Of a stretch of 64,000 nucleotides of DNA, positions 21,391 through 58,255 are shown in pieces. Each line of letters begins with the position of its first letter. The first letter of the stretch is position 1. A program made the translations under genes and the position numbers. Source of the DNA: Diplonema papillatum (Eukaryota > Euglenozoa > Diplonemea > Diplonemida > Diplonemidae); assembly GCA_030068145.1 (NCBI GenBank), contig JAPJBO010000429.1, forward strand, positions 122,060-186,059, read 5' to 3'. Below the pieces are notes generated by a model. The model was not told the origin of the DNA. It did not search any database and saw nothing but the letters and a program-made list of their open reading frames with translations.

Positions 21391-21457
21391 TTGAGCCGTC
21401 TCAGTGGTGGAAAACAAAAGAAATTGCATACCAAAAGCAAAAGCCAAAAGACAAACG

Positions 21458-30830: not shown

Positions 30831-31935
30831 CCACCACCGATTTAGTGTCTGCCTGCTTGACGTCGACTTTCTGCGCTTTCGCAGCATTTCGTTACTGTGC
30901 TGACGTCTTCTAGTTACAGTATGGTGGTCAGGTCTCTGTGGTCTTCGCTGGTCGTTTCAGGTTAGTGTGTGTTTGGTAAAAGTAACATCAAGGCAGCCCT
31001 TTCGAAGACCAGTCACAGTCAACACCGCGTGGGTGCGGGCTGCAGACACAATTCATCATGTTTCAAACCCCCGATTGCGCGTTACCTGGAAGCACCCAGA
31101 GGGTGTCGTGGTACGAAGATGCAGTTGCCAGCTCAAAAAGCAAGATCGGCCATGGTAACACATGTCCACGGGTTCGTTCATCGGATTTCAGAGCTCTTGC
31201 AACGATCGTGCGCTTATTGCCGGCGTGCTTATATGTAGTGTCACGTCTCGTAAGCTCCAACTAAGAGGCACGAAACCCACAGTCACTACCATATCACACC
31301 ACCATAGGCATATAACTAGGTCGCGTACCATCTGCTGTGACGTAGACACGGAGTGTGCTTAGTGCGTTGCTCAGGGTAGTCGAAGGCCTGACAATCACAC
31401 GAATGCAACAAATTTCCCCCCGCCCGACAGCGGCTGCAGCGGCAGCAACAGCGGCAGCGACATCGACAGCGGCGACGTTGCGAGAACGCACGGAAGATAC
31501 CGCGGCACAGCATCAGTCCATTCCCCACGCGGGGTGGGATGGCCGTGGAACCCTCCCTCGGGATGACGAAGGCCGGGGAGAGCCGGGGGCAGTGAAGTGA
31601 CGAAGCCCGCGAACGATGGGTGGTGACCCATGAGCCAGGAACCTCAAGGGGAGCAGCACGAGAGGCATCATCCACGCTTCAAAGGCCCACACACTAATGC
31701 AACACATTTACCAGCTAGGTCCGCTACCCACAAGCCCGAGGTGCATACACCTGTATCTGCCACGCAGACCTTGAAATCAGCGTCCTCTTTGGATTGATCA
31801 GTTTCATTATTACCGCGTAGCACCTTGCAGGAACCTCCCCCCCCAAAGGGTAGTGTGACAGTGCTTGGAAGCCTGAGGGAGGAGAGTACTTCTACACGAT
31901 AAGCGTGTAGACTAACTCCTCCCCTGCACCCCGTG
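30831..31935. other. Intergenic region upstream of the giant HECT gene
   Basis: A GCGGCAGC-rich stretch at about 31425-31480 is the only notable composition. No gene or transposon end was recognised. Confidence 0.5.
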
Positions 31936-34900
31936 ATGGATGGCGCAAAGAAGGAAAGAACGAAGAACGAGAAGGATGCGGTGACGGGGATCGCGATGAG
32001 TCGACCTGACACGATGGCGACCCCCGTGTTCGGCGAGTACATCGGCAGCGGCAAGGCGCTGCGCGAGATCTACTCGGAAAGCTGCAAGAAATACGGCTGC
32101 AAGCGAAACAGCGGCTTGTACGAACTCCTCAGCGCGAAGCCAGCCGACTACGACCAACTGGAAGAACTCGACCTATCGAACAACGTTATTGGCAGTAGAG
32201 GCGTGCTCTCCCTCCTCCAAGTAGTCGCTGTATGCAGGTCGATCCGCCGGTTAGGACTGAGCGGGAATTCCCTCGATCATCGGTGTGTGATGCACATCGT
32301 TGACGTTGCGAAACATCACAAGTCATTACAGAGCCTCGACTTGTCCCACAACAGGATCGGTACCACTGGTAAGGCAGTCTATGACCTCATTCGCACCAAC
32401 AGCGCGGTGACCGATGTTTGCTTGGAAAACACGTACATTGATGCGTACATGCTCAAGCGGATCAACGAGCGACTAGCAGCAAACAAGATACACGCCAGGT
32501 TGTTGAAAACACACGGTACAACCAACAACAACAACAACACCGGCAACGTCAACACACCGCCGCCGCCGACGCCTTCTCCGCCGCCCACGGATGTCAGCGA
32601 TCACCGTGATAAATCCGACCAGCTTCACCCAAAGCAAGCTACCACCGAAACGGCGGTGGCCCACCTGCATACCGACGATGCCGCAGAAAAGCACAACCCC
32701 GTCACCCCCAAGGCACCCCACCCGCCCCCAACCGACCGCCAGGTCAGCGAGCCATCACCTGTCCGCAGTAGCGCAGACCCACTGAGCACGGACTCTAATA
32801 ATCCGGCTCCCACACCCAACCCAAACCAGACAGTCCCCACCCCAAATCCAAGCAGCGTGCCGAGCATTCACGCAGCAGCAAACCCGAACTCGAAACAATC
32901 ATCCCTCCTGAGCAGAACAACCGATACAACTCCGCCTGCCAGCGCAGATCCAACAAGCCGTCCTTCGCTACAGCCTCGGAAAACCTCCGCAGTTCGATCA
33001 CATAGTTCATCACCGGAGCATTGTGTTCACGACGATCGGACACTCGCTTCCCAAGGAAGCCAAGGCGGGTCTACGTCAGCTGGAAAAAATACATACGGCA
33101 AGCAAAGATCCACCAGCGTGGCGATGTCGAATGCATCGGGCGAAGACGGAACCCATGACATGTTCCCCGAGTCTTGGTGGGACGCAGCGACGCCGATCGA
33201 AAGCGGCGATTCGTTTCAGCCGACCCCTTTGCTGGAAGGCGCGTACGGCACCGACTGGGCTTCGTTTCCCCTCCAAGATTTGTACACCGAACAGCGGTAC
33301 GACCAGTACCACCCGACCGCGACGAAGCTTCTTCAACTGCACGCGATTTCAGACCCCCTCGGGCAGCCGCCGATGCAGGCCGATGACTCGACCCTCCAGC
33401 CTGGGGGCAATATGAACAGTGCCGCCGCGCTCCTCCGAGAACTCTCCGCGCACTCAACGACTTCAGAAGAAATGAGCTTGCTGGACTACTCGGATGCCAG
33501 CTCCCTCCATGCCTCCGTCCCCACCACCACTGACGCAAGCAGCGTGCACACCTCCGAATTCTCCGAGGATGAGCTCGCGGAAGCACAAGCCCACCCGTCG
33601 TCACTGTGTGACGACTTCCGCACGGACGACGACGTTTTTGAGCCTCTTTTGAGCGAGTCGCCCACAGCTCGCCCCGATTCGGGACCGGAAGATCACCGCC
33701 AGGAGGAGGTTGACCTCGATCCCGTGGCGCCCGGCGACGTCGTGAACCTGCCGCCGCACCAGCTCGAAGCGCTGTTCGCCCGCGTCGTGGCGAAGAGCGC
33801 CTTCGACGGCGGGTCCCACGGCTCGTACTTGCTGCTGCACGAAAAGAGACTGGCCCTCCTCAACTTGATCTACTCGGCGGCTCTCGCCCCGCTCTTGTCG
33901 ACACCCTTGCACACGCATTACACCGCGCAAATGCCGGTGCAACTACGTTCGCTCTCGTTCTTCCGCCGGCCTCGGATTGGCACCGAAGGTCTGCGCGCCG
34001 ACTCAGAGCGAATGGGGTTGCTATTCGCACTGATGGACCACGCCGCGATGGCGCAGCTGCCGGGGGTCGCCGAAAACATGCTCAATGTCATCTCCTCGTC
34101 GCTTGCGGCCGCTGCCCCGTTTTCGTTGACTGGAGGCTCGGCGCAGGCGCTGCCGGCAGACTTGGTGTCGGCCATGGAGGACTTTTTATCCACGTCCGCC
34201 CGCACGATTTTGCACGACGCCCCTGCAAACCCGCCGGCCGGTGCCAGCTCTCTGCATGCGACCGTTTCGGAGTGCTTGGTGCAACTCTCCGTGGCTACTG
34301 GACACCTGCGGAACGTGCTGACCGCTGTTTCCTTGCTAGAACGACTGCAACGCATCGAAGAATATTCTCCGCGCGTCGTCCCGTCGCTGTCGGCGTTCGC
34401 TTTGTCAGCCTTGGAACCGTTTTTGACGACCACCGACTGTTTAGCTCCGCCTTTAGCCACCGAGCCTCTTTCCTGGACCACTGTAAGCGGCCTCTTCCCC
34501 CCTTCTTCTGAGGCGACCGCCCATGCCTGCGCGGTCACCGAGAACATGATCGTCATTTCCCGCGGGCTTTCCCTCTTCAGCCTCTGCCGACAGAGCAAAG
34601 CACACGGCTTCTCCATATCCTCGCACCTCCCGTCCACTGCGCCCCGTCTATCCGATCCCACCGCGTCCGTTTCCGTCGCAGGCCTCGTCGCTTCGTACAG
34701 GCCGAGCACACTTCCAACGCAAGCCGGTTCGAACCAAAACGCGCCGAATCCTCTCGATTTAAGCGTGATTTGGGTACTTTATCGGGTTCGTGCTGACGCT
34801 GCGGGTGCGCTGTCTTGGCGGGTGAAGCCTGTGGGCGTGGGTGAGTTCGGGAAGCTCGTGGACATTGCGGAAGGTGCGGCTGAGGTGCTGGGTTGTTTTG

Positions 34901-37900
34901 AACATGAAGTCAACGTTTCCGAGTTGTTGGGTGTGGTGTACGGTGTCGTCCCTGACATGGGAGGACGGAGAAAGTGGCGTTGGCGCGAGGGTAAGCGAAA
35001 GGATCGAATGGGGGACAACCAAAATGTTGCACCTGCCACGAAATCCGCGTATTCCGGCAGCAGATTCAACATTATCGGAGAGTCCGTCACCAACCGAGAC
35101 CTAACGTTCGTTCTTTGGGACCCGTGGTCGCGAACACAAGTGTCAACACTGCCCACGACTCCCTGTCCTACACCGGCACCCCCACCTTCCGTCCTCCGTG
35201 TGTGGGCCACACATGGCGGTCTCGCTGTCGGCACCCGCACCGGTCGATATGACTTCACGAAACGGGTTTCCACTCTTTCACCACACGAATCCTTGAGTGG
35301 TCAAAAGCCGCGTGCTGAATCTAACACCGATGCCCTCACATCATCTTGGCCCCCTCCGGGCAAGAGTAACGGGACGCCCAGCAACCAGACCTACTCGAGC
35401 GATCTGCAAGCGCGGATTGGCGCTCCCGCTTTGCCGCAGCTGACGGTCGAGTTATGGTTCAAACTCGCGCGGACGCTGGGTGATGGCGAATTGGTGGTGT
35501 TGTGCGGGTTCTCGTCCTTCAAAAGCGAAGTGCAGATTACGATCACCCCGCACGACGGCTCCGCAGCGACCGTGCGCGCCGGATACGTGCTGGGCAGAGG
35601 GCCCGCTGCGTGCGGGGTTCTTGCCAGCAGCGCGTTGCTGCAGTGGTGTCACGTCGCGCTCGTGTATCAGAATGCGTGCTTTTCGGTGATCGTCAACGGC
35701 GAAGCTTTGGGCACTTCGCCTGTGTGCGCGACGTTGCCTAAGTTCACCGGAAAGCCGTGGTCTTTGGCATCCGGACTCAACGGGTATTTAACGGAGGTCA
35801 GAGTCTGGCACGTCGCTAAGACCATCGCCGACATCCAGCGTGACATGTCAACGCGGCTAACTGGCACCGAGCCGGGCCTCTCGTCGTACCTACCGCTAAC
35901 GGAAGGGGCCGGTCAGGTTATGATCGACAAACTGTCGTTTTGCGGGTTGACGAAGCCCGTCGATGTCTCGGACGCGTGGCACAACGACGCGGCCGTGGCC
36001 GCCGTCGTATTCAACGGGGTCATCGAGTGGTCCGTGCAGGACGCGCCTCCCTTGGCCTTGGCCTTGGCCGCTTCCTCTGACACCGAGTGTGCCCTTGTGA
36101 TCCTACCGTCTCGATTGGAGATCGCTTCTTCTACAGAACCGGTGCGACTGTACGGTGAAGGGACGTCCACTGTGATCATGTTCCCGGAGTCATGCTTTAC
36201 GTTCTCCTCGCTGATCAAGAGCCACGCCGTTACCGGCCGATCGTTCAGTGCCGGGGAGCACCAGTCCGTCCTGCAGCATGCGTGCGGATCAACCAATCCC
36301 GTATCTTGGTACTGGGGTACGACGCCGCATGGCAACGCGTGTTTTTTGACGAAAAACACGACCGGAACTCTGCTCCCCGACGGCACCGTCCTCTTCATCC
36401 AAGATGACGGCTCGATGTCGACCACCGTCGTCGGCACCCCGGATGACTCGGAACCGCCGCTTTGCGAGTTCCCAACGCAGCTTCTCTCTTCGGCGATCAT
36501 TGGTCCAGAAACAGACGGCGAGCTTGCCGTTTGCCATGCCGCTGACCTGCAGCTCCAATTGCTCCATGAAGCTGTCCGCAACGTTCCTCCCGAAGGGGTG
36601 AGCTCACCGGCCAAAGGAAACGGCGAGGTAGCTGTGGTTGTTTCAGACCGCCGCAATGCCGGTGGAAGTGCTGCCCGCCGCGCGTCTTCGGCGTTGCTCC
36701 GGGCGTGCGTGCTGTCCGTGGACGCGGTGAAGGCGCGAGACAGGCTCGGGTTTGATATCCCGTTTGCAACGGATGTTAACCAGTCGACGTTCTTGATGCT
36801 CGGGCGTGTTTCGCAACGTTGCGACGACCTCACCCTGTACGCGTACTTTCGCATGGCGCAGGTCAACGTGACGGTACTCCACCGCGCGCGCGTTCTACCA
36901 GCGTCGGTGGGCTTGACCGGCGATATGTCTTGCCAGCTGGCTGGCCTGGTCACCGCAGCTGAAAAAGTGCTCGATACCCAGACTCCTTCCGCCGGCGAGA
37001 AGAAGAGATTCGGAGGGTTGATCCGGCTGGCCGCAGCCGAGTTTCTCTGCGCGTATGCTGCGTGTGTGTGGAAACCGTCGGTTCCCGAAAAAGTGGCGAG
37101 TGTCGTGCAAGGGCTCCCACCGAGGACCCGGAAAAAGAGACCCGCTGACACGCAAAAGCAGCAGCGGCAGCATCAACAACAAGACCGACAACAACAGCAG
37201 CAGCAGAACGAGGCAAGAGACGTGTGCCTCTCCTCTTGTGACGTGAAGCTAGTTGGCGTGCTGCTATCGCTGGCAGCGGATCCCGGCTTCGGCGCGCTGG
37301 TACGCGAGGCCCACGCGGCTCTGCACGACCCTTCGCGCAACGGCGGCATCCTGCAACTGGCCCGGGTGCTGCTGTCAGCAGTCACGCCCTCTTCGGAGTG
37401 CTGCTTCGCCCTGCGCCAAGCCAGCGTCCGCGCACTGCAACAGCTGCAAAAACACGTGTCATCCCTGGCCGTCATCCTGCACCGCGTGGGTGCCCAGAAC
37501 CGAGTCCTCCACCCCCAAGCGCCGGAGCCGTTCGCCGACCGTGAATCTGGCACGCCCACTTTTTCCGAACAGCAGGACCCCCCCTCTTCCCCGGTCCCCT
37601 CGCACGCGCACGCCGCGCACACGCAAAGGTGGCAGCCAGCCTCGTGCGTCGACGACAGCCTTCGGTACATGAAAACGCTGTTCTTCCCGTTCATGCGGGA
37701 CGTGTTTTCCGCCGCGGTTGCTGATCTCAAGTACGTGAAGCGGCACCCCCAAGCGAAGCCGGTCATTCTTTCCGAGGTCTTCCCCGTGTTCATTGGTACG
37801 TTGCCCCTGCTGAACGCGTACGCCGAAGAGTTCTTGAAAGGTCTCTCCCCGTTGCTCTCTGTCTTCGTCTTCGGTGCGAGCGAACTCGCGCCTGTGGCTC

Positions 37901-40900
37901 GATCGGAGCGCAGGCTACGGTCTGGTGACGCCTGCAAAGCGAAGACGGTGAGCTTCTCGAAGGAAGTGCACGCGATGTCTCGGCAAGGCGACGCTTGTTT
38001 GACACAAAAGGTGTGCATCCCCGGAACCACGGCTCTTTCCGTGTCGTTCGATCCATCGTGGACCCTCAACGGCGAAACCCTTGTCGTCCACCTCCCGGGA
38101 AAGGACGCGGAAACCGAGGGCGAACCGTTCGGACAGGACCGGTCGTGGCCCGAAGAAGCCGTCACGTTCGGCACCGACACCCTCCTTTTCCTTTTCGACC
38201 CAAGCACCGGCAAACCGGACACGCTGCAAGGGCCGCGCGCCAGGCGCCAGGCGGGGTTCAAAGCAACCGTTTCGGGCACCGTTTCGGTGACTTACCCCTC
38301 CCTGCACTGGCTGCATGACGTCGTACTGGGAGTCATGTTCGCCTCGGCCAGGGTGTGCCACGCGCTGACTTCGTCGTACACCGTCGCCTGCACGCCCATC
38401 GACGACCTGTTGACGCCATGGATCACCGAGTTGTCACTAGAGGTCGAAACCTGCACTTCCCCGCACCCGTTCTGGACGGAGGTCGTCGAAAACGCCGGCG
38501 TCGGCGCCCGGCTGGTGGCGGGGCTGGTTAAGAAGAACCACGCCACCGCCCAGCCGCACCTGGGCGGCCCCGCCATCAGCCGGGCCCTGCGCGCCGTCTT
38601 CGCAGCCCTGCTGTGCCACCTGGGCATCTCGCCTCAGAAGCTCGCGGCGTCGGTCGACTTCGGCGACGAGGCGCCTCGCATCGCGGTCAGGCTGTGGAGG
38701 AAAGTCGAAGGCCTCCGACACTGGCTGCTCGAATTGCGGCAGAAGTGCAACCGCGCCGCGGACGAAGACGACGGGTTCGTGGACACGACGGGTGCTTCGG
38801 ATCCGATCGACGAGGTCACCGGAAGGGCGTTGGTGCTGTTGGCGCACCCTCCGACGAGAGAAGTCGCGTCGTCGCTGCGGGAAGCCGAGGAACACGTCGC
38901 GAACCAACCGCTGCTGGCGTCCGGCGCGGACTTGATGCGGAGTGAAAGCGCGGTCGAGGTCAAGAAGCTGCCAAGTTCCACCTGGCGCAGGGCGACCGAC
39001 GGTTGCGTCGTATTCCACCGCCTACGGCGCCTCCTCCGAAAAAGCCGGCACGCCGCCGTGGGCGCGACGCCGGAGCGCAGGGAGGCCGCCGTGCTGCTGT
39101 TCTGCCAAGACGAGTCGATCACCAAAGCCCTCTTCGACGACTTCGTCTCCCGCCGCAAGCTGCTCGCCCGCCGCCGGCTCTCTGCCGTCGCCTGCTTCGA
39201 AAAACTGATTTTCGACCACGCGGCGCTGCACACCCCAAGCGGCGCGATCGGCCAGCAACCCGTGCCTTCCTCCTCGGGGCTGCCCTCGCCAACCCCTCCT
39301 GTGCGTGGTGAAACGTTCGCGTCTGCAAACCCTGGGTTGGTACGTGCGTTCATCCGGTCGATCACGGGGCATCACTACCTCGACAACCTCTCGTGCTGTG
39401 GGAGGACAGCGGAAATTGGGATCCAGAGCAACGTCTACAGCATCGTTGCTCGGTTGGCCGAGCGGTTGGGAACGGATCCAGGGCAGGAGGGGCAAGGGTC
39501 CGAGCAGGATTTGGAGCGGATAGACCTGTTCCTGGACCTGATGTCGTGCGCGTGGAAGGGAGCCGACTACGGATTGGTGCTCAAGCTCGACGTAGTCGCG
39601 ACGCTCCGCAGGCTGTTCGGCGAAAGGGGGTCCCGCGCCGGCGGGAACACCAAAAGCAACACAAGCAACAGCCGAGGTTCCGCCGACAATGCCGCCAACG
39701 CCGAAACCGACGCCAAAGCGAACACGAACGCGGACGCGAACGACGCCGAGGATCCCGCGAGCGAAGCCAACAAAAACGCCGGCGGGCCCACCCCTAGCAA
39801 GCTGGCGCCCCTGCGGGCAAAAGCATGGCACGTCCTGCAGCTGCTGGCACTCCGCGCAGCGATGGAGACTGGAGGCGTCACCGGGGCGGAGCACTCCAAT
39901 TCCTTTGCCTTCGGCGACGTTTCGCTGCCGGTCGACATCGAGCGGTTCGATCAACAGCAGCGCGAACGGTTCGATCAACAGCAGCAATCCTTACGAAGGT
40001 GTGGTGCTCCCCCCCTCTCGTTTTCGCTTTTTGCTCGGAGCCAAAAGTGGTGTTCACTTCCATGCCCAGCAACCAGTGCGAAGACCGAAGACAGCGAACA
40101 TTAACTGCTTGGCCACCTTCTCCGACTCCGAAATAGTGTTGACCTCAAGGAAACACGTCACGCAAGTTGTGTGCTCTGTAAACAGCGCGTGGCTGTGTAC
40201 ACGGGCTGTATACGTTGAAAGCGATACTTGCTTTTGTTTGTGTGCACCCCCGGTTTTTATGCTTTATGCGAAAGGTTGCATTGCCTCTGACAGGTGAGTG
40301 AGTAGATGGTGTCTGCACTCTTAGCTCCTTTGCCTCTAGGTATTTGTGCCGGACACTCTTTTCATGTCTCAACAATATTACTTCCTATTCAATTAAAACA
40401 GTGGGGACGAGCAACCGCGAAGATCGGTTGTATGCTCCGAGACTGCAGCAGAGGACTCGGAAGGCGACGGCGAATCGGACGGTGGCCGAGGGGCTTGTGC
40501 GCACCAAGTGCAGTTCTTGAAGCGTGTAATGACGGTGGCTGGGGAAGAGCTGTTCCATGGTCTAGCGGAGCTGGTAGATGCACATGCAAAGTATGCCGCG
40601 CTGCGGAAGCGACTGGCCCGCCTACGGTCCAGACGTGACGAAGTCGAACACAGCATCCGGTTGTACCGCATTCGCGCCCACATCGCGAAGCGATCCAAAT
40701 CCACCCTCTGCGGCTCACCCTACGCCGACACTACCCGCACCCTCCTCGGCCACTCCCCCGCCCTCACCGACGCAGCCAACAAACAACCCCTGCCTCTTCC
40801 TCCCACCACGACACCGTCACGAAGACCGACACCTTGCCAATCCCCTCATTCGAACCACTCCAACGCGAAACTGCACAACCCGCCGTCCACCCCCGTGGCA

Positions 40901-43900
40901 GCAGCCGCAGCCCCTGCTTGCCCAGCAAGCGCGCCTCCTCCTCCTCCTACTACGGCCGAGCAGCTGCTGAAAAAGCTGAAGGACGCCATGCGCCGCGACC
41001 GAGCAGACCTCCTCTGCTTGAGGGCAGCCATCGACGAAAAGTCGTCGTTCGCAGCGTCTTGGGTCGCCCTGGCCACCGCGCTGGTCAGCGCCTCGCCGTC
41101 GGTAGTGATGGAGCTCGTCACCGAGTGCAACGTGTTGCTCGCCGCCATGCAGCTCCTTACCTCCTTCGACCCCAGGGGGAACGCGTTGGTCAGTCGGACC
41201 TGTTTCGCCCTTTTCAGGGTGACGCTGCCGTACATCTCGAGCCAACGCGCCGACGACGCTGCTCATTTCGCGCGCGCCGCTCACTACTTTTGCAGAAAGC
41301 AACCGGGCGAATCGTCGCTGGCCGACGAGATCGCAGCGCGGAGCAACTCCGGGGGGCGGCCGGACCTGCCGCCCGGCACTACGACGTGCGCGCTTTTCGT
41401 CGAATTCGCGGCGCAGCACGGGCCGCCGGTGCTGCACCAGAGGCGGCAGGTTGTGCAGGGGTTTTCGAATTTCGACCTCGAACTAGCCACGAGCCGGTTG
41501 CTCCGGGTGCTGATGCAGCAAGCAGCGTGGGAAGAAGCGGTGCTCACGACGGCGGTTCATGTGATTTCGGCGTGCGGCGAGTGCTGGCTGCGCCGAGACA
41601 CGGGTCCGGCGGGCGAAGAAGAAGACGAGGAGGAAGGCGAAACTGACACACCTAGAGACGCGCCGAACGTATCAAGCATTGACAACAACGGAAAAGGGCA
41701 ACCGGTCTGCTCAGCTGCCACGGATGGGCACGAAGCTGGAGCTGTAGAACGCGAAACCGACGTTGCCAGTGTCACAGAAGACGTCGATCCATTTCTCAGC
41801 ATTCCTACCTTCGAAACTTTTGCGCACAGGTCTTTCAACCCAGCCGAGCCGGGGGCCCCGACAGCCCCCAAGCAACCTGATGGAGATGGGACCAATATCG
41901 GCGGTGAAGGCAAGGCTAGTGGCGAGCAAGTTGCAAAGACCCGGGATGTCACTGATGATGACCTGCAGCTTTTCCGTGCGGTCAAAACCGCTAACGGCGA
42001 AGAGGTCACTGAAGAGGACGTAAACCGGTACCGCGCGTTCAAGAGCAGCGCGGCGGCCCGTCGAAGAAACGCCGTCACGCACGTTGGGAACGCCAGCGCA
42101 AAACCCACCGAACCGCAACACCCCGCCAAATCCAGCGTCCCAGACGCACACGGCGATCAGAACACAAGCGACGAAACCGGGAACGCATCAAACCAGGCCC
42201 CGGCGCAGCCCGCCGGCGAAAAGCCGGACCCTGGCCCAAGGCTCAAACGAGCCTCGGCCAGTGGACGCGAGCGTTCCGTGTGCACGGCGGAGGAGAAGCC
42301 GCTCGATGACAGCGACAATGCGTTCTGCGGCGGCTCCGCAGGTGCTGAGGAGCGGCACGGCCGCAATTCGGCCGGCAGGAGCCACACACAGCAGAAAACC
42401 CGAAGCAAAGACGCGTCGGAAGGTGAAGAGAACACCGATACCGACGAAGAGAGTTCTGAGAGTGATCGGGACGCAAGACGGAAGGCCAGGCGCATTCAAC
42501 GCCGGAAAAGCAGGATACAGCGCTGTCGTCAAGGTAGTGGAGAAGAAGCGAATGGGTACAACAATGGCAGTGTGGCTGCAGACGGCGGGCTGCTACCTGT
42601 AAGGTCGAAAGACAGCGACTTGGCAAAAGAACGGCAGCTTTCCATTGCATTAACTGTCCTGGGCGGCGGTGATGTGCGAGTACAAGAAGGACGGTTGGCC
42701 ACGTGCAGACTAAGAAGGGGCGCGAAGCAGCGAGTCTTTGTGCAGAGGCTGAGCGGAACCGTGGCAACCGTGGTGCCGCTGACTGCGAAAGGCTTGTATT
42801 TGGCCGCCAACAATATCCGATCGACGGCCCACCCATTCGTCGATGTCACGCATAACCCCCCTCGAGAGGTCCAAAGTGACCGCGTCGTTGTCTCTGGCAA
42901 CGACATGCTCTCTGTCTCATCAGAGGTGAAGTCGCCAGCCATCCCCGGCCGCACTCTTAGTGTCTTCAGTAATTTACTCGTCCAAATGCTGGAGCCCTGT
43001 GCTTCGATGGAAGCGATGTACAGCCATCGGCCGCCTGCCGATCCAAACAGCGAACCGCTGGTCCGGTTGCCTACTTTGAAGTTGTCACAGTTGAAGTCGC
43101 GGTTATCCAACAGCAAAACGCTGCCGAGTCTTCTCCGCGCTCTGCACTCCGGGTTGTGCGGGACAAACGGTGTCGAAGCCGCTTCCGTCCTAACGAGCGG
43201 TGTCGGTGTCTTGCTCTTGAGGTTGTGCTCGTTGAGAATAGAGATGGCACCGCCGCTTCCGTTTCAGCACTTAGGCGAGATGTGCGCATTGATGAATTGG
43301 GTACTGCCGCACCGTTCCGTGGGAAAGAGGAAGAAGGATCCGTGCGAGGACGACATGTCAGATCGTGATGAGTATGAAGAGGACGAAAACTGTAACGATG
43401 ATGACGATGAAGAAGAAGACGAAGCCGACGACTGCGACGATGAACCGTGCATGGAAGGTGAGGAAGAAGACGCGTTTCATGCCACAGATGACACTTCACT
43501 GCGTGATGGTTGTTGCTACCCGGGAAGGGATCACGACGAAGAGTTAGATCAAGAGGACGAGCTGGCTTCGTTGCCTGAGGTCGCTACTGAGTACAATTTT
43601 GCTACATTCCAAGAAGGCACCGACGAGGGCGACGACGACATCTGGGACTCATACACAGAAGGAAACGCCAACGACACGGATGAAGAAGAAGCGTACATTG
43701 TGTTTAAGCGTGCAGAATCCCTCCGGCGGCTCTGCACTGACCCCGACCTGTTCTCGGACGTGTGGAAACACAACGTGTCCCTCGCTTGCACCTTCTCCGC
43801 TCGATGCATCTTGCAGCTCCTGTCCCTTACAGCCGTTGCCCTCGACACTAAGCATCTCCACCAAACATCCCACAATTCCGCGACATCACCTATTCCACCC

Positions 43901-46900
43901 ATCAGCAACCCGGCACAAGAGGCATCTCCCCGTACAAACACCGTGCGCAAAAACGACACCGACATCTCAACTCGCGAAACCGCACAGGACGACGACAACT
44001 CCGACGTTCCTGACTGCAAAGAGGTTTCTGCCGTCAATAACAACCCGGCCGATGATCCGGCTCGGAACGGCGGAAAGCTGGCCGCCGCAGCAGTGCAGGA
44101 TTTGTGGACAGAGGCAGCCGTCGGGCCCCCTCTCTTGGTGCTGAAGTTTGTGGCGAAGGCAGCGGCCATGGCGCATCGCGGGCTGGTCGAGCAGGAGAGC
44201 GTCAACGGCGCCATCGGGACCCTGCTGCGATGCTACGAGAGGAGGGTCGAGCTGGCCGAGTTGTTCGTGGCCCAGGCGCTGCTGCTGCTGAGCGACGAGT
44301 ACGTCGGGTGCCAGGAGAACAACTTCCACCTCGGCATCCTCCTCGTCGAGGCCGTCGCTGCGAGCAGTCTGCACCAAGCCGCGATCCGCTGGAAGACCCT
44401 CTCCGACCTCATCGCCCTGGCACACGCCTGCGTCGGGTCTCGGCGCCGGCAGGTCTTGTACCTCATCGCAAACCTCCTCCACCTCACCGCCGAGACCGAG
44501 CCCCCGAATATTAAGTCCTCCCCCGACACGAGTCGCACACTGACAACTGAGCGACTCGAAGGCACTGAATCCGGCGTCACCGCAAAAGCGCATCCTCCTC
44601 CCTCCTCGCCAGACGGCTGGCGCAGGCGCGTCGACGTCGTGAAGCTCGACTCGCGCTTCGGCTCGCTGCTCGGATGCTACCGGAAGCAGCTCGTCCAGGA
44701 GCTCACCGCGAAGGCGGGCGGCTTCGACAATTTGTCAATGTACCTGCAGGCCCTCGCGGCGGCGCTGCAAGGGCGGAACGACTTGGCGCGCGCACAGCGC
44801 GGCCCGGCCGGGCCGGGGACCCCGTTCGGCGGCAAGGCTCTCCCCGAAGAGGAGGCCGCCCATGCCGCGGTCGACCGGCTGACGCTGTTTTTTGACCGCA
44901 TCGCGGGCGGCTTTGCTTCCTCCGGACCCGACGACGCCGTGTCCGTTCCCGCGGCACTGTTGCACGACGCTCATATGGATGAGCTACCGAGTACGTGGGT
45001 CCGCTTTGGGGGTCCAGTTGCGGAGTGTGTTGCCCTCGGCGCCGGCATGACCATCCGAGGCGTCTGGCACGACTCGTTCGCGTTGGAACCTCTGAACCCC
45101 GACCTGCCTGGAAACAGCAACCCCGCGGACAGCAGCCCCGCCGGCGCCCAGACCCACACCGCTACTGATTTTCCTCAGCCCGCGGGGTACTGCCCCGCCC
45201 CCGCGTTTCCTCGGGGATCCCCTGTGTTCCCCTCCGCACCGCCGCCCGCGGGCGAGGCGCAGAACGCGTCGCATTTCTTGGGAAACGTGCTCGGATGCAA
45301 ACCGAGCGGTCCAGCCAGCTTCGGCGACGCAAGCCGCGGAGTTGGCAGCGAAACAGGCGCGACGGCGCTGCTGCTGGCGTCGGCGTGCGCGAAGGTTCGG
45401 GCGGAGAGCTTCAGCAACTTTGCGACGGTGCTCGCAAACGTGAGCGTCGGCACCGGACAGTGGTATTATGAGGTGGAAGTCGAGGCGTCGACTCTGCTGC
45501 AGGTAGGTTGGGTGGACGCGCAGAACTTCGCGTGCGATTCCGAAGAAGGACACGGTGTGGGCGACGACAGGTACAGCTGGTCTTACGACGGCACCCGCTG
45601 TTGCATTTGGCACGCGAAGACGTCGAAGCCGTATGCAACGCAATCAGACACGCTCGACTCGCGAAGCCGGTCGAACGACGACGGCAAGCGCAGGCGAACC
45701 GCCGAACGCAGGAAGCGCCGTCGGCAGAAAGCGAGGAGAAAGCGCCGCCAGCAATCAGGCGGACTTTACAGCGCGAGCAATAACAACACGACCGTGTCCA
45801 GCTGCGCGACGACGACAGGCAACCAGCCATCGTCTTGCTGCGGCGACACGTTGAAAGAAGCGAATACTTCGCACGATACCCTCTGCGACGAACTCGAGCC
45901 TGAAGAAGGTAGCACAGAAGGAGACTGGGCAGGAGACGATGCCGGTCTTCTGAGCGAGGACCATGATGAAATTGATGCGTACGACGACGACCATGCATCC
46001 TTCGGCGCGAGCGGATGGCGCGCAGGCGATGTGATTGGTTGCCTGCTCGACGTGCCCGCCGGCGACGCCGGCGCAACGATACGGTTCACACTCAACGGGA
46101 CCGACCTGGGCACCGCGTTCTCCGGCGTGAAGATCGCGAATGCGACGCGTTCCCTGAGCCCTGCAGCTTCGCTCCGCTCCGGCGACGTCATCGGCCTCAA
46201 CCTGGGCGCGGCACCGTTCAAACACGCGCCGAACGGTTACCGTGGGGTAGCCGCGTCGGTGGCTTGGCTGCACGGGGTGCTGCACAGCGGAGCCAAACAC
46301 AGCGAAACTGACGAACTCTCAAAAAGAGCCTTGGTAGACGTAGCCGGTGGTTACGCGGATGCTTGGTACAAGGCAGTGGTCCACAGTACTCTCGACCCGT
46401 CGTCATCAGACGATCGGCGGCGCGCACAGCCATTTGAAGTTGATGATGCCACCATGTGCATCAACACCGGAAAGATACTACACGACATAAATCGAGGAAA
46501 GCCTTCTTGCAACTCGGGAGAGGATCGAGTGGCAGAAGAAGACCCCTCGCGCACCACCGGCGATCAACCCGAAAAAACGGCGGGAGACCAAGCACCTCAC
46601 AGCCGGGAAAGAGCGGGCGGCTGGTACTTGAGCGTCCTTTGTAGAATCTCGGTCGTCGCGCGCCTGGTGCGCCCGTTTGTTGGACCGGAACACGCGCTGC
46701 CGAACTGGTTGGGATCCTGCGGTGCGATGCGGGGGCGGCACAGGAGTTGGCTGGGCAAGTTCGTCGAGCTGAAGGACGTCCTCTTGCCCTGGGCGAAGGA
46801 GCCGCTGATAGAAGGAGTCGTTTCGGGGAGCACCAGCGAGTCGCACGTGGCGTCCATCTTTCTCTCTCGGAATTACTTCTCGCAAAACCTGGCGAAGTCG

Positions 46901-48112
46901 GGGCAGACGGAGACGCTCTTTGACCAGCTGCACGCACTGTACCGGCACAAGAGGTCGTGGGCATTCCGGTCTCACGAGAGCTGCGACTCGTCGGCTCGCC
47001 TTTGGACTGTCGTTTTTGAAGGCGAAGCCGCCGAAGACGCGGGGGGGCCGTTCCGCGAATCGCTCACCACCGTCTGCGAAGAACTCTCCGAAGAAACCCC
47101 TTCGAGCTTGTTCATCGCGTCCCCCAACCAAAAAGGAAACTTCGGCGACACTCGCGACAAGCTCGTAGCGCGCCCCGCCCTCGCCAGCACCGCCGACGCC
47201 ACGCCCCAAGCGATAGTTGAGCACGAGTTGCTCCTTTCCAAGTTCAGATTTCTGGGGCGGCTGATGGCCGGGTGTCTCTCCATCAACGAGCCGATGGATC
47301 TCTCCCTCAGCTCCCTTGTGTGGAAAACACTGACGAGAACGCCGTGCGATCGGTCCGACCTGGCTAGTGTCGATCAGATGTGTTTGAACGCCTTGGACGG
47401 GATCGTCAACATTGACAAAAAGGGGGTCACCCCAGAGCTTTTCAGAGACGCCATCGATGAGTGCTTCGTCACGACGCTCAGCGACGGGCAAGAGGTTGAG
47501 CTGGTTAAGAATGGGAGGGATGTAGAAGTCACGTTTCAGACGCGCGAAGCCTACGCCCGGCTTGTGATTGAGAAGCGGCTGAGGGAGAGTGAAGTGTACC
47601 TCGAAGAAATGCGTAAGGGGTTTGCCGACGTGCTTCCCGAGTCGGTGCTTGATTTGTTTACGTGGAAAGAGTTGGAGAGGCGGGTCTGCGGCGCATCTGG
47701 CATTAGCGTGCCGGAGTTGCAGAAGTTGGCGATCTACGAGGACATCGACGAACAGAGCACGACGGTGCAGTACTTTTGGGCGGCCGTTGAAACTTTCAGC
47801 GACCCCGACCTGACCAATCTTTTACGCTTCGTCGCTGCTCGTAGCCGGCTGCCGGTGGCGATGAAGGTGCAGTCCTTTGCGGTTGACGGCAACCCAGACC
47901 ACTACCTGCCGCAGGCGCACACATGCTTCTTTTCGATCGAGCTGCCCGCGTACTCTTCGGTTGATATCATGCGCCACCGGCTGCTATACGCCATCTATAA
48001 CTGCAGAGCTATCGACACCGACGGCACCCCTGTCGGCCTCGATGACATGGACGCCGACGACGAAGAGGAGTTTGAGTTCGACGATGAGCACACAAGCGCC
48101 GGCGAACTATAA
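31936..48112 (+). CDS. Giant HECT E3 ubiquitin ligase (LRR, LamG-like, SPRY, HECT)
   Basis: It joins 31936..39998 and 40402..48112 into about 5,257 residues. The donor ACGAAG|GTGTGG and acceptor TTAAAACAG leave phase 2 and phase 1 parts that rejoin as AGT; the second exon is open right up to this acceptor. In order: leucine-rich repeats (about 75-190; LEELDLSNNVIGSRG, LQSLDLSHNRIG), a long Pro/Ser/Thr-rich linker, a LamG/concanavalin-like domain (about 1165-1325; LTVELWFKL, WCHVALVYQ, GYLTEVRVW), helical regions and low-complexity inserts, an acidic run near 3680, a SPRY domain (about 4340-4635) split by a basic/acidic insert, and a C-terminal HECT domain (about 4880-5250) with FFSIELPAYSS after the catalytic Cys5196 in LPQAHTC. 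As in the family, it should carry ubiquitin on that Cys and pass it to a substrate; the substrate is unknown. The first frame codon is GTG at 31933; I use the ATG three bases on. Confidence 0.88.
39999..40401 (+). other. Intron of the giant HECT gene
   Basis: 403 bp with GT and AG ends. The upstream frame stops inside it at 40104, and the downstream frame has no ATG before 40529. It shows no similarity that I can see to repeats A or B. Confidence 0.75.
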
Positions 48113-49288: not shown

Positions 49289-49504
49289 AAAAATCCGAAA
49301 ATATTTTTCTCTTCTTCCGTCGCAAACCACCAAAATGGTCGCTGGTTCGATTCCTCGGGGCGTCGAGCGTTTTGGAGCTCGTAGTGCGTGTTCTGCTTAC
49401 AGTGGTGGTGTAGCGGGGGTCAAACTGCAGACTTCCTGACGGGGCACGCGAACCACCGGGAGGATGGTTCAAATACCGAAAATGAAATCGCCCGCGTTTT
49501 TTTC

Positions 49505-49792
49505 GCCCGTGGTCTAACGGGTAGCACGCCCACTTGTGGTTCTGGGGGTACTTGATTCGATTCCTGCGAGGAGTGTTTTTTTTGAGGACCGAAAATCGGC
49601 CCAAAAACGTCTAAAGTGCCATCTGGGGGTCAGATTTTTGGCTATATCGAGTTCCAAAAAGGTGCCGATACTTGCCGTGGATAGCTCTTTCCATTCCAAA
49701 AAAAATTTCCGAATTTTGCTCAAAATTTGACCTGAACATGTCGGATATGAGGAAGCAAAATCTGTGACACGTTTTCGTGGAATGAGTGATAT
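49505..49792 (+). repeat. tRNA-headed SINE-like element, plus strand
   Basis: The head GCCCGTGGTCTAACGGGTAG contains an A-box-like core and is followed by GATTCGATTCC (B-box-like) and a T-run. The body shares GGTGCCGATAC with the minus-strand element and ends with AAATCTGTGACAC and TTTTCGTGGAATGAGTGATA. Confidence 0.6.
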
Positions 49793-51377
49793 ATTTGTGG
49801 CGATAGCCATAATTGGAAGTTTGCGATTTCCATCCACTCGATCACAACCCGCACATCGGGTTTTGCAAATGGTATATTCCGAAGGGAACTGCGAATCCCG
49901 CCACAGGTTTGGCGTACCCAACAACACGGCGAAAGAGGCTTCTTGTTATGCTTCCTTTCTCTGACGGTGAAAGAGGCTTCTTGTTATGCTTCCTTTCTCT
50001 GACAGTGAAAGAGGCTTTTTGTCATGCTTCCTTTCTCTATGTCACCGAATCGTGTACTTTTGGCGAACCTTCAAAACCTGTCTTGGGCTTTCCCGGGCAG
50101 CCTCGCCAACACTGAAAGTACTCTCATGTATCAATACGAAACAGACAAAAAAACGTACCGCATAGACAATACAAAAAAGAAAAGAAGGATATATTATTCA
50201 TACTCTTTCCTGTTTCTCTTTCCTGAGTTCTGGTATTTTTGATGCGGCAACAGAGAAAACCCGTATTCTTTCTCTGTAGGTAGTCCCAGTCTTAATCTTC
50301 CTATGCCCCAAGTGCCAGTTAGGCTAGGGTTAAGGTTAGACGTGCTCGAGGACTGCTTTCTTTTCTGCAATTTTCTTTCTAATTCCCATTGTTCTTTACT
50401 TCTTGGTTTGACTCGAAACACAGTCCAGCTGCCCAAAAAGCCGTTTCAAGCCAACATGGCACACTTCCACCATTCGTATCCTTTTTATATTTCCCTTCAA
50501 ATTCTGAGTCATTCAATTCAAAAATAGCCCCCGCCTTCCCCCCAAACGCGTAAAGAACAGGGAGCTTTTTTGAGTCTCCGTTTGCTTGCATTTCTATGCG
50601 CCCGTACGACAACAAATCAAAAACAATATAAAAAAAAGGCTGTCACCATTTTTTCGTTATCTTTGCTCGTGTCGAAATACACGGTGTGCGATCGCATCGA
50701 TTTCACGGCAAGCGGATCTCAACACATTGATTTGCCACCCAAAGCCTGTTATGGCTTCTTACCGCTTGTTACCGTAATACCTTTTGCACCATGTCAAAAT
50801 TGTCCGCAGCAAAACGGAAATACGCAATGAGAGTGAAGTTGGAGTTCTTCGTTCCTAACCTTTGGTGCATCAGGGGTCGTCCTTCCTTCACAAATCAAAT
50901 GTTGATTTCTGACCCGAACTGGAACAAGGAAGCACTCACACACTTGTGGTGTTGTTTGCACAGCAGTGTTCTCAAATTCCCACACAGAAACAGGCGGGAG
51001 GGGGAAACACCACAGCCGCAAAAAAGCAAGAGGCAGAAGCGGAAGAAAACAACAGGGCGGTGTAGGGGAAAAGAATTACCGCCGGAAAACAATTCAGGTC
51101 TTGGCAAGGCACCCGTCAGGAAGCGGGGGGCAGAAAGCCCCCTCAGGTCTACCTCGCATCGTGTCCAGAGGCTTTCTTCCTTTCTGTATCACCCTGAGAG
51201 AAAACCCGGGGTGAAGAAAGAGGCAAACAAAATAAGTACCAAGGCAGCTAAGACGGAAAACACGCCTGTTTCATTTCAACACGATCTGCTGCTTCGCGCG
51301 ATACCAACAGCTACAGCAGAGTCTGAAGGGCTGCGTGTGGAGGCGTGTAGAAAGCCGCAACGGCGGCTGCCAGCTAA
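49793..51377. other. 1.6-kb intergenic region
   Basis: A short direct repeat (GAAAGAGGCTTCTTGTTATG, CTTCCTTTCTCTGAC) occurs two to three times at about 49932-50035. No gene recognised. Confidence 0.5.
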
Positions 51378-54122
51378 ATGAGACTGCAACGCCGGCTCCC
51401 GGCGATGCAGGGCACCTGGCTCGGGGGCCTTCCCTTGCGGCCACGACGGTGGTACTGCCGACCAGAACCCCCGCCCGTGGGCAACCAACCCCCGCCTGCG
51501 AGTCATCCGCCCCCACCTGCAGGCCATCAGCCCGAAGAGGTATTTAGTGCTTTTGTCGTTTTCTTTTTTTGTATACGCACCCAGTGTGCGCGCGATCAGC
51601 CGGCTTGCCGGCTGATTAAATTTCGAGCCCTTTTTTTACCGGCAGACTCGCACAAAGTCAGCCGATTTTCAACAGTGCAAGCTTTGGCTTTGCCACCCAC
51701 AGCGGAATCAGCTTGATGCACCGACAAGATGTTGTCGTAAACCCCTTCTGATCGGCAGACCTTCCAAAAATCAGCCGGCTGGCTATCAGCTGGTCAGTTC
51801 TTCAGGAACTATTTTTCCGGCTGAAATCAGCCGCTTTTTTCCCTAGCGCGAACACTGTACGCACCTGCTTTGCAGGATATACTTGAGGAGGCTGCCAGTT
51901 GCGAAATATCAAAGGAGTGTTGGAATATTGTTGTCCATTCCCACTATCGCAACAGTATTCCGATATCAAAGAAGGTAAATGTGCTGCAACCCACACGATC
52001 TGGGTTCAGGGGCAGGCGTAAGCGTTCAACACAAAATACCCACTTTTAGTTGTATTGTTTCTCCCCTCTAGCCTCCTTTGAAGTAAGCACAAGGTAGCCC
52101 TCGAGTATTCTCGACCGTGTCTCGTCTACTCTTGATACCGTTACGAAAATTGTTGCCTTCGTCCCCGGATCCAATGTGCCAGCGCATGCAGGGATTGGGA
52201 AAGAGTACTTTATCAAAGACTACACTACCGCTATCGTGTGCTCGGTCGTGCATACTCCAAAAAAACGTGTTACATTACCATGTCGTTACCAATAGCGTGA
52301 ACGACAGAAAGAGAGGTACCCAGATCGCGACCAACCATGTGCCTGCGTGTGCACCCCGACATACTGGGCATCTCAATGCAAGCCCTCTGCTCCTGATCAC
52401 AGGCCACAGGTTTCACCCCAGTTCCTATCATTCAAAACTCAGGTCCTCCTGGCTGTGTCTCGGACGGTCGGTACTGATCCAGAGGTGGCCCGGATGGTAG
52501 TGACGAAGCTGCCCCCGCACACCACTGTGCAGCTGGAGGCGGCTCTTGAGGGCACCACAGGTGCCCAAGCGGCTGCGACCGTCACACCTGGCGCCACAGA
52601 GCTGCGGCTGGTTGCCATTGCAGCAGCGTGCCCGTTCATTGGGTTCGGAATCCTCGACAACATGCTGATGATCATCTGCGGTGACTGGATTGATCAGACG
52701 CTTTGCGTGACCTGTGGGTTCAGTACCATGGCAGCCGCAGCTTTGGGGAATACCATAAGTGATGCAGGAGGCGTATACAGTGGTGGTCTCGTGGAAGACA
52801 TGGCTGCAACGTGGGGCATTGAGCCCCCGCGCCTCACCCGAGCGCAAGAAAGCATGTCCATCACTAAATTCTGGGAACGGATCGGGCAGGTAATCGGGGT
52901 TGTCATCGGCTGCTTGATCGGGATGTTCCCGTTGCTGCTGATGGATGCGAGGAAGGCTGAGAAACTGAAGCAGACTAAGCGGATGGACGAAATGTATACA
53001 GGTGTCCTCGAAGGCTTGTCCGAGATGTTGGGCGCCGAAGCAGCCATTCTAATGTTGGTGGATGCAGACGAAGGCGAATTGGTGACAAGAGGTCGGGACA
53101 ACATACCTGAGTTCCGCTGCCCTTTGGCCGAAGGTGTCAAAGGCGCCGTCGCGCTTTCTGGAAAGTTCATGAACATCGAAGACATCCGAACAACGTCTTA
53201 CTTCGACAAGGTCAGACACGAAAACTATCAAGGAACCGGCATCTCGGTCAAGTCTGTCCTCGTGCTGCCTGTGCTGGGGCCGGACGACAAAGTGCTCGGC
53301 GTGGTGGAGGTCATCAACAAGGTCGGAGAGCCGCATTTCTCGGAAAAGGACGAAGACGTCCTCAGCGCGATCTGCTCACACATCAGCACCGCCATCATGT
53401 CTGTGGACGAAACGGAGGGAGCGTTCAAACAGACAATGCAACTTTGCGAACGAAGCCTGCGCAACCAAGGGTACCGTTTGAATTCAGCGCAAAATGCTCG
53501 GATTGATTACCTGTTCCGTCTGGTTGTTGAAGAGGTTACCACCGCTCTTGACGCCGAAGCGGCGCAACTTCTTGTCGTGGACAGGACCAAGGAAGAGTTG
53601 TACACAAAGGTAGCAGACAATCTGCCGCCTATGCGAGCCGATATCAACCGGGGTATTATGGGGAAGGTCGTGAAGACAGGCGAAGTTCTTTGCATCGACG
53701 ATGTGTCGAAGTCGCCTTATTTTGACACCCTCCGGCACCGGAACTACCAAGGCAACGAAATCACGGTCCGCTGCGTGTTGTGCCACCCGATTCTGGACTC
53801 GAACAACCAGGTCATCGGAGTTATTGAAGTCATTAACAAAAAAGGCAAAGACGGTGTGTTTAACAGCCGAGACATGGCATTTGTCAACGCGGTGGCCTCT
53901 CACCTGGCGCTGAACATGCAAGGCCCTGGGACGTCGTTGAAGTCTGTGTTGCGCATGATCGGCAAGCAACAGGAGACGGGTCGTCAGCAAACATCGCGCA
54001 ACCTGCAGAAAGTTCTCAACGCCGCGTTCAACGAAGCAGACAAAAATGGTGATGGTGTTATCTCGAAGGCTGAGTTCGAGGCTGCTGCCAGACGCATCCT
54101 TGCAGGCACGCCTATTGGCTGA
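51378..54122 (+). CDS. TMEM65-GAF-GAF-EF-hand fusion protein
   Basis: It joins 51378..51539 and 52422..54122 (620 residues); the donor GAG|GTATTT and acceptor CACCCCAG are both phase 0. A second in-frame acceptor at 52442 is possible. Exon 1 gives an Arg-rich, acid-free start (MRLQRRLPAMQGTWLGG) like a mitochondrial presequence. Residues about 75-230 form a TMEM65 domain with three membrane helices, containing FIGFGILDNMLMI, CGFSTMAAAALGN and GVVIGCLIGMFPLLLMD. TMEM65 is an inner mitochondrial membrane protein linked to Na+/Ca2+ exchange in animals. GAF1 (about 242-381) has the NKxnFx3DE-type motif NKVGEPHFSEKDE; GAF2 (about 412-554) has NKKGKDGVFNSRD, without the final acidic residue. A single canonical EF-hand loop, DKNGDGVISKAE, starts at residue 594. 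Ligand and location are inferred, not shown. Confidence 0.88.
51571..52070 (+). repeat. Dispersed repeat B, copy 2 (in TMEM65-fusion intron)
   Basis: It matches the rejoined copy in CWC22 intron 1. It is itself interrupted by a 276-bp hAT-like MITE after its first ~11 bp. At the place where copy 1 carries the 3.5-kb hAT element, this copy reads straight through (ATTCCCACTATCGCAAC). Confidence 0.85.
51582..51857. mobile_element. Non-autonomous hAT-type MITE
   Basis: It has ends CAGTGTGCGCGC and, reverse-complemented, CAGTGTTCGCGC (11 of 12 identical), and a perfect 8-bp duplication TACGCACC at 51574-51581 and 51858-51865. The motif ATCAGCCG and close variants recur several times just inside both ends, as in hAT subterminal regions. 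There is no coding sequence. The ends differ from those of the 11354-14850 element, so another transposase family would mobilise it. Confidence 0.9.
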
Positions 54123-57150: not shown

Positions 57151-57709
57151 TATGCTGTTCAAGCCCCTTCAAGTAAGCATCCACCCTCGTCAGGGGAGAG
57201 GGGTTCCCCCGAACGTTCTTTTGTACACTTTTTCTACTTTCTTTTTCGAAAAGAAGTATATAACAACCCACACTTAACAGACAGATTGGAGCCTAAGAAA
57301 GAGCCGTTTACTTTTTGTTTTGCTTGCTGTTTTATCTGCATCCATTTTTCTTCATCTTTTTTCATGCTTTATGAATGAACCGGAAAACGAAGCGTAACAA
57401 TGCCGACCAAACGAAAGACATCCCCTTTCTGCTCTTCTCACAGGTGCCACTTTTGACGAACCGTTTATTGGGCGAGTTCTAGACCCAGCTCCAATCTCTT
57501 CAATTCAGAACAATCTCAAACAGCTCGGACCTGTAGTTTCAGGCAGCTTTTGCTGCACAAAATGCACACAAGCAGCAAAATCTTGAAGCAGTGTATTCAA
57601 AGCACTTACGTCTGAAAACCAGAGTCATCGACAATTTGGCGACCTACAGCTGAAGGTATACTGTGAACAGGAGGGCGTGGGGGGAGTGCACACTAAAACA
57701 CAAGCACCC

Positions 57710-58255
57710 ATGCGACGGCAAGCATGGGTGCAGCAGCAGCGATGGTTGGTCAGCACCGGTCATTTTTCGCACATTGATGAACACGACAGAAGCAAGCCAG
57801 CAATGGTAGATGTCAGCTCAAAGGGTGAAACACGTCGCCGAGCATCAGCGGAGGCTACACTGTGGATCGAGCGCAGCCTTACCAAGCGAGAAGAGAACGA
57901 CCTCATAGACATAGTGAAGAACCTCGAGAAGGTTGTTCAGGCAGCAGCCATTAACGGAGCACTGCAAACAAGCCGTGTTATCCCGTTCTGCCACCCGTTG
58001 TCCCCTCTGAGTGTTGAAGCTGCTGTCCACCTGGACTACATCACAAGGAGACAGCTCACTATTTCGGTCGAAGCAACGACTTCAGGCAAGACAGGTGTCG
58101 AGATGGAGGCTCTCTCTGGCGCTGCTTGGGCGGCCTTGACCACTGCCCCGTTGCTACCACAGCCAACAAATGTTGGTCTCATCCGTTTGACACACAAGTC
58201 TGGTGGAAAGAGCGGTTCAGTGGACTATGATGTGGCTGGGAATGCAGTAGTGTAG
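57710..58255 (+). CDS. moaC: Cyclic pyranopterin monophosphate synthase (MoaC/CNX3)
   Basis: It encodes 181 residues. MoaC completes conversion of GTP to cyclic pyranopterin monophosphate, the first step of molybdenum-cofactor synthesis, together with the radical-SAM enzyme MoaA, which is not in the window. Seen in order: FSHIDEHDRSKPAMVDVS, ETRRRASAEA, VIPFCHPLSPLSVE, TGKTGVEMEALSGAA (here SGKTGVEMEALSGAAWAAL) and the active-site loop THKSGGKSGSVDYD. The start is the first ATG of the frame; it gives an Arg/Gln-rich leader (MRRQAWVQQQRWLVS) of the kind expected for mitochondrial import, as for plant CNX3. The frame is open to 57677 with only a GTG, and an AG sits at 57669-57670, so a further upstream exon is possible. 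The domain is complete and unbroken. Confidence 0.92.
   Translation: MRRQAWVQQQRWLVSTGHFSHIDEHDRSKPAMVDVSSKGETRRRASAEATLWIERSLTKREENDLIDIVKNLEKVVQAAAINGALQTSRVIPFCHPLSPLSVEAAVHLDYITRRQLTISVEATTSGKTGVEMEALSGAAWAALTTAPLLPQPTNVGLIRLTHKSGGKSGSVDYDVAGNAVV

Follow-up and report, generated by a model that had tools for sequence, protein, structure and literature searches.

Among the described systems closest to the protein presented here is animal TMEM65. The human protein is described as residing in the inner membrane and as having its presequence cleaved off; it comprises 240 aa, its third membrane segment lies at 211-227 and it has no sensor tail (PMC3994636). TMEM65 was reported to mediate mitochondrial Na+-dependent Ca2+ exchange and to self-associate, and the same publication, in its Supplementary Fig. 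1, has EF-hand-bearing TMEM65 orthologs from outside the Metazoa (PMC13254257). A second group of comparable systems are the phosphodiesterases (PDEs) and cyclases with tandem GAF domains (PDE2A, PDE5, PDE6, CyaB2), in which a GAF pair is joined to an effector. The exchanger role of TMEM65 was reported only recently and, to our knowledge, the control of its activity is an open question. In this work we describe a gene of Diplonema papillatum in which a TMEM65 core is followed by two GAF domains and one EF-hand. It is located on the forward strand of a stretch of 64,000 nucleotides (contig JAPJBO010000429.1, positions 122,060 to 186,059, assembly GCA_030068145.1), which is called the window and whose numbering is used throughout. 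The best explanation, which we consider probable though far from certain, is that the window gene encodes a mitochondrial inner-membrane protein of the Na+/Ca2+ exchanger type with exchangeable sensor modules; we infer its location, transport, dimerisation, regulation and ligand from the features described below.

Domain order of the window gene and its TMEM65 family

The open frame at 52296-54122 (+) comprises 608 codons with zero stops. Because all domains are encoded in this single frame and in a single exon, the junction between TMEM65 and GAF needs no splice; the main coding exon, exon 2, spans 52422-54122 (+) and ends with the stop codon TGA. The TMEM65 domain PF10507 (52623-52946, +) was matched above the curated Pfam cut-off at residues 110-217, numbered from 52296 (E 1.3e-39, 135 bits, cut-off 25), and the match spans profile positions 2-109 of 109. 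It is followed by a charged linker, presumably a helix (52947-52979, +), which leads from the third membrane segment to GAF1. Next come GAF1 (52980-53396, +) and GAF2 (53508-53922, +); both the GAF_2 model (100.2 bits, cut-off 28.6, E 1.5e-28) and the GAF model (95.9 bits, cut-off 22.4, E 3.6e-27) recognized two stretches of the protein. For the single EF-hand (54015-54095, +) the models EF-hand_1 at residues 574-600 (26.6, cut-off 25.4, E 3.6e-6) and EF-hand_5 (28.2, cut-off 25.9, E 1.1e-6) were slightly above their cut-offs and three more EF-hand models gave matches under their respective cut-offs; by inspection, DKNGDGVISKAE at 54039-54074 is a canonical 12-residue loop. The order TMEM65, GAF, GAF, EF-hand in one continuous frame, as claimed by the original prediction, is therefore borne out by the Pfam matches and the 608 stop-free codons.

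On either side of the junction the codon usage resembles that of coding sequence, with 0.10 bits/codon for TMEM65, 0.27 for GAF1, 0.18 for GAF2 and 0.07 for the EF part; the 19 codons between GAF1 and GAF2 reach -0.08 bits/codon and the intergenic median is -0.30. In the spliced protein, hydropathy peaks are clear at 122-140 (1.80) and 210-228 (2.32). The TMEM65 domain is 40-46% identical to that of three paralogs from the same genome, and the invariant core positions of four paralogs are retained in the window copy. No PDB relative of the TMEM65 part was found at E 1 or better.

For the detection of these paralogs a PF10507 profile scan was performed which covered a genome of 271 Mb on 2910 contigs (280 Mb are given for the published D. 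papillatum assembly; PMC10161547). Six matches were found and read as five genes, so that the window gene is not an isolated case but one of five TMEM65 genes with differing sensors. The paralog L002 (1426-2346, -, contig C337) encodes two N-terminal EF-hands, above cut-off, followed by TMEM65. In L003 (1054-2085, -, contig C39) TMEM65 is followed by a cNMP-binding domain (CNB, 8.4e-17), and L004 encodes TMEM65 alone. The fifth gene (L005/L006 within L010, 5002-8355, contig C371, whose end is L011) carries a TMEM65 domain split by a putative 2484-nt intron and then the start of a GAF domain, with E 0.007 and under the Pfam cut-off. Past its last readable exon a 41-bp tandem satellite reaches nearly to the contig end. 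A candidate continuation of this gene on contig C202 does not sit at a contig end.

Between the window gene and the C371 paralog homology continues through the third membrane segment and the linker into GAF1, with 40% identity over 179 aligned positions. The post-membrane part alone, consisting of the linker and the start of GAF1, scored 61 against the C371 paralog, the best of 5000 shuffles being 51; the GAF starts of three other own-genome genes reached 33-46 when aligned to that stretch. The two unlinked genes thus appear, from these alignments, to share the TMEM65-GAF fusion point. As the junction is common to both, an accidental join in the assembly is an unlikely source of the fusion, and a chimera or assembly error was rejected; the homology of the linker to that of the unlinked paralog likewise speaks against splicing between TMEM65 and GAF1.

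The CNB of L003 is closest to site B of trypanosomatid protein kinase A (PKA) regulatory subunits (6ftf 3.5e-23, 6flo 9.8e-22), followed by mammalian RI-alpha with 7.7e-18. Trypanosomatid PKA-R sites are described to bind nucleosides, with conserved glutamates (Glu435 in site B) in contact with the ribose and the phosphate Arg missing (PMC10959531). In the L003 cassette GELEIINNHPCVAD the Glu residues 433 and 435, Asn438, His440 and Val443 are retained and the phosphate Arg is missing as well, and for this reason a nucleoside is the best prediction for its ligand. The kinetoplastid domain regulates a kinase, whereas its counterpart in L003 is fused to TMEM65. The same class of nucleoside-type site was found in other CNB proteins of the genome. 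A putative extra last exon of L003, ending in QYVWYRMKMDK, changed the matches from 85.4 to 85.3 bits (6ftf), from 80.7 to 81.6 (6flo) and from 67.9 to 69.9 (1rgs, mammalian RI-alpha). Since the trypanosomatid matches were shifted little and RI-alpha by 2 bits, the lid helix of this CNB is only a suggestion.

A further relative, L041 (2557-3396), was found in a contig of a metagenome-assembled genome labelled Verrucomicrobiaceae and combines one N-terminal EF-hand-like loop with TMEM65 (2.4e-42, core 41% identical). The loop was seen by eye, the models being under their cut-off (20.2 vs 25.4). Because the frames next to it gave matches to Myb, ARID and amine-oxidase profiles and some of them are broken as by introns, L041 was taken as a eukaryotic contaminant. 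A bacterial origin of TMEM65 was rejected, as one of two contig scans gave no relative and the other gave L041. Three scans of viral contigs gave no match.

With animal TMEM65 the window gene shares the PF10507 core and, putatively, three membrane segments and a presequence-like N terminus; it differs in its sensor tail and in belonging to a family of five, vertebrates being described as lacking relatives of TMEM65 (PMC13254257). The combination of TMEM65 and EF-hand is shared with the non-metazoan orthologs, but GAF is unmentioned in the main text of the publication presenting them (PMC13254257). The EF-hands of L002 and the EF-hand-like loop of L041 are N-terminal, whereas that of the window gene is C-terminal and located behind two GAFs. 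From the tandem-GAF PDEs and cyclases the window protein differs in that its effector is a membrane transporter core, its pocket positions are altered and its two GAFs look like sister domains. The claim of an undescribed layout stands in part: EF-hands on non-animal TMEM65 were already published (PMC13254257), and none of the papers searched names both TMEM65 and a GAF domain, although databases may contain uncurated entries of this layout. None of these papers names PF10507 or combines TMEM65, diplonemid and genome, and in their main texts PMC10161547 and PMC7052976 mention neither TMEM65 nor calcium. The novelty is lessened for the EF-hand part, as this is already known, and increased by the sensor-swapping family.

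Proposed mechanism and the ligand of the GAF pair

According to our proposal, the window gene would encode a nuclear-encoded protein of the mitochondrial inner membrane consisting of a TMEM65 transport core and a C-terminal regulatory module, in which the third membrane segment passes via a charged, probably helical linker into the GAF pair and the single EF-hand. The GAF pair would most likely join two subunits and respond to a small molecule, probably not a classical cyclic nucleotide, and the EF-hand would read Ca2+ on the same side as the GAF pair. Ligand and Ca2+ would alter the exchange rate through the linker, within a dimer. Within the five-gene family the core is combined with an N-terminal EF-hand pair, a C-terminal nucleoside-type CNB, a C-terminal GAF or no sensor. 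Sensors of at least three kinds (GAF, CNB, EF-hand) are thus fused to one core, which points to allosteric control via the tails, and the family provides natural constructs with which the gating end of TMEM65 could be determined; for Paradiplonema papillatum, genetic manipulation is described as feasible (PMC12621601). More tentatively, and with somewhat less than even confidence, mitochondrial Ca2+ efflux of diplonemids may run via TMEM65 exchangers with swapped sensors for a nucleoside (trypanosome-PKA-type CNB), for a small molecule and Ca2+ (GAF tail) or with an N-terminal EF-hand pair. If true, mitochondrial Na+/Ca2+ exchange would respond to metabolite levels directly, with no kinase in between.

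The GAF1 motif NK-x5-F-x3-DE, referred to as NKFDE, is intact, as the original prediction had noticed, and GAF2 keeps NK-F-D with Met in place of Glu. In both domains Val occupies the position of Thr in G[YF]xT, a residue which we take to be a ligand contact. Pocket residues were compared with a reference set of eight GAFs from the PDB alignments to the window GAFs. In five of them, CyaB2 A and B, PDE2A-B, PDE5-A and PDE6-A, this Thr is present (equivalent to TEYQT in PDE6); Leu is found in PDE2A-A and Ile in PDE5-B and PDE6-B, the latter two presumably not binding cyclic nucleotides. Among the other own-genome GAF segments compared Thr occurs in 8 of 11, being absent from the second GAF of L017, from L022 and from L027, and in the alignment A3 of own-genome GAFs it is kept in 6/6. 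In the GIAG stretch, the five Thr-bearing references have Ala or Val as third residue and the window GAFs Lys or Met.

GAF1 and GAF2 are identical in 54 of 136 residues (local score 269) and have in common the stretch YFDxxRHxNYQG, which is found in none of the 11 other own-genome segments compared. With 26-29%, they are less identical to the tandem GAFs of the PDE L013 and of L014 and L015 (GAF only in the frame read). This mutual resemblance suggests that the pair arose by internal duplication of one GAF within the protein, rather than by capture of a PDE pair.

The most serious of the alternatives, which we nevertheless regard as unlikely, is that the GAF pair serves for dimerisation or folding only and that the EF-hand is the sole sensor. 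The altered pocket positions and the reported self-association of TMEM65 (PMC13254257) would fit this; the full NKFDE motif in GAF1 does not, and the ligand-type CNB at the same place in L003 suggests sensing.

Rather improbable is a GAF pair which was derived from a PDE or cyclase and acts as a cyclic-nucleotide sensor, by which the exchanger would be regulated directly by cAMP or cGMP. The closest solved structures are indeed those of CyaB2, PDE2A, PDE5 and PDE6, and within the genome PDEs and cyclases are among the proteins with the closest GAFs. NKFDE, retained in GAF1, is said to mark cyclic-nucleotide GAFs, and single mutations in the motif are reported to abolish cGMP binding in PDE2 GAF-B (PMC11977230). 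Against this stand the missing Glu in GAF2, the Val in both GAFs at a position held by Thr in most references and own-genome segments, Lys or Met instead of Ala or Val in the GIAG stretch, and the resemblance of GAF1 to GAF2, which is closer than that of the pair to the tandem GAFs of L013-L015. Given the Val in both GAFs and an NKFDE motif that is complete in GAF1 alone, cyclic-nucleotide binding appears unlikely; the motif pointed out by the original prediction is kept, and a cyclic nucleotide is not favored as ligand.

Proposed cellular location and membrane topology

The link of TMEM65 to mitochondrial Na+/Ca2+ exchange, on which the original prediction had built, is supported by the report on the exchanger activity (PMC13254257). 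The genome gave three MCU matches over cut-off and 32 Na_Ca_ex matches, among which NCLX was not singled out, and mitochondrial Ca2+ uptake and other exchangers therefore probably exist. PDEs with GAFs, adenylate/guanylate cyclases and histidine kinases are present in the genome as well; the proteins of histidine-kinase type with a GAF (L021, L024, L025) match HisKA in 3/3 and HATPase_c in 2/3 cases. All five paralog N termini are Arg-rich with a net charge of +5 to +8 and 0-1 acids per 30 residues (one acid in the window gene). Of 1363 internal windows, 4 combine a charge of 4 or more with zero acids, an acid rule stricter than the composition of the window gene's own N terminus.

Several points weigh against the exchanger proposal. 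It is drawn from sequence throughout; a structure predicted from a two-row alignment had a mean predicted local distance difference test (pLDDT) of 38.9 and was not used. The GAFs could be purely structural. The middle membrane segment (148-166) is weak, with a hydropathy of 1.37 and overlapping lesser peaks, and does not surpass two peaks of the GAF region (1.53 at 249-267, 1.39 at 334-352). The N-terminal amphipathic moment is not above that of shuffles in any of the five paralogs (p 0.12-0.82; window 0.68). Moreover, in four of five paralogs the net charge is more positive behind the third membrane segment than ahead of the first, with one tie. By the positive-inside rule this excess would place the tail in the matrix, contrary to the orientation of human TMEM65 with the N terminus in the matrix and the C terminus in the intermembrane space, which was inferred from the three membrane segments and not measured (PMC3994636). 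The GAF/EF tail may sense either of the two compartments. With the N terminus in the matrix the EF-hands of L002 would read matrix Ca2+ and the other tails ligands of the cytosol-like intermembrane space; the opposite topology would reverse this.

That the protein resides in another membrane, as argued for mouse Tmem65, which is reported at the intercalated disc (PMC9579145), is improbable; the uncertain first exon leaves room for it, but the presequence-like N-terminal composition is found in all five paralogs. A join of two separate genes, or a join made by assembly or annotation, can practically be dismissed even in a repeat-rich genome, given the 608 codons without stop across the junction, the coding-like codon usage of TMEM65 and GAF1 on its two sides and the same junction in the unlinked C371 gene.

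Gene start and further features of the window

The coding region probably begins upstream of exon 2. The sole in-frame Met before the TMEM65 domain is located at 52494, and a pre-membrane segment common to the relatives (52443-52550, +; local alignments to L004, L003 and L041) starts upstream of it. The frame before this Met aligns with L003 (p 0.03), L041 (0.048) and L004 (0.056), while p is 0.22 for L002; an ungapped test anchored on a shared Leu-Pro gave p 0.001 for L004, 0.10 for L003 and 0.004 for both jointly. These alignments give modest support for some upstream exon. A model with no exon 1, in which trans-splicing at 52421 is followed by a start at Met 52494, was disfavored, since the upstream frame aligns with three of the four relatives, each at p 0.03-0.06 (L002 0.22).

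The best candidate for exon 1, which is a good guess, is located at 51378-51539 (+). It comprises 54 codons from the first ATG after an in-frame TAA and encodes an Arg-rich N terminus followed by a proline-rich stretch. Its presequence-like composition, noted in the original prediction, holds with a net charge of +6 and one acid over 30 aa, and its codon score is attained by 114 of 3740 open intergenic stretches. The putative GT-AG intron (51540-52421, +) has 882 nt in phase 0, with GT at 51540 and AG at 52420-52421; introns of D. papillatum are described as mostly GT-AG and shorter than 1 kb in the median, and repeats as adjoining genes (PMC10161547). However plausible, the junction 51539/52422 is putative only: within 49400-52440, 582 combinations of ATG, donor and acceptor keep the frame open, and the codon score of exon 1 is 0.062 in its own frame vs 0.318 and 0.067 in the other two. 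A dispersed repeat in the putative intron (51866-52027) recurs 3' of the L003 paralog (L003 1-165), with 124 identities, 24 mismatches and 31 gap positions (score 93, best of 500 shuffles 25).

Downstream of the TMEM65 gene, at 57587-58255, a gene of the MoaC family (molybdenum cofactor) is located. Two adjacent very long open frames at 31903-40104 and 40397-48112, of 2733 and 2571 aa, encode LRR, LamG-like, SPRY and HECT domains and perhaps form a single giant gene for a HECT ubiquitin ligase, interrupted by a short intron or a frame change. An open frame of 958 aa at 11704-14580 (-) with an acidic run at its end and no Pfam match perhaps encodes a mobile-element protein. The open frames at 21395-22327 and 26629-27498 are duplicated, with 245 of 271 aligned residues identical and no Pfam match in either.

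The core of the euglenozoan spliced-leader (SL) 3' end occurs in 628 copies spread over the genome on both strands (329 forward, 299 reverse), with 0 for the backward control. It is preceded in 7 of the 10 loci read (L031-L040) by CCAACGATTTAAAAGCTA, which we take to be the diplonemid SL form, in keeping with a diplonemid genome. The downstream flanks of these ten loci differ except for those of L031 and L035, which are the same, and some other copies are regularly spaced (C91, ~1994 bp). The copies may represent retroposed trans-spliced mRNAs beside true SL arrays.

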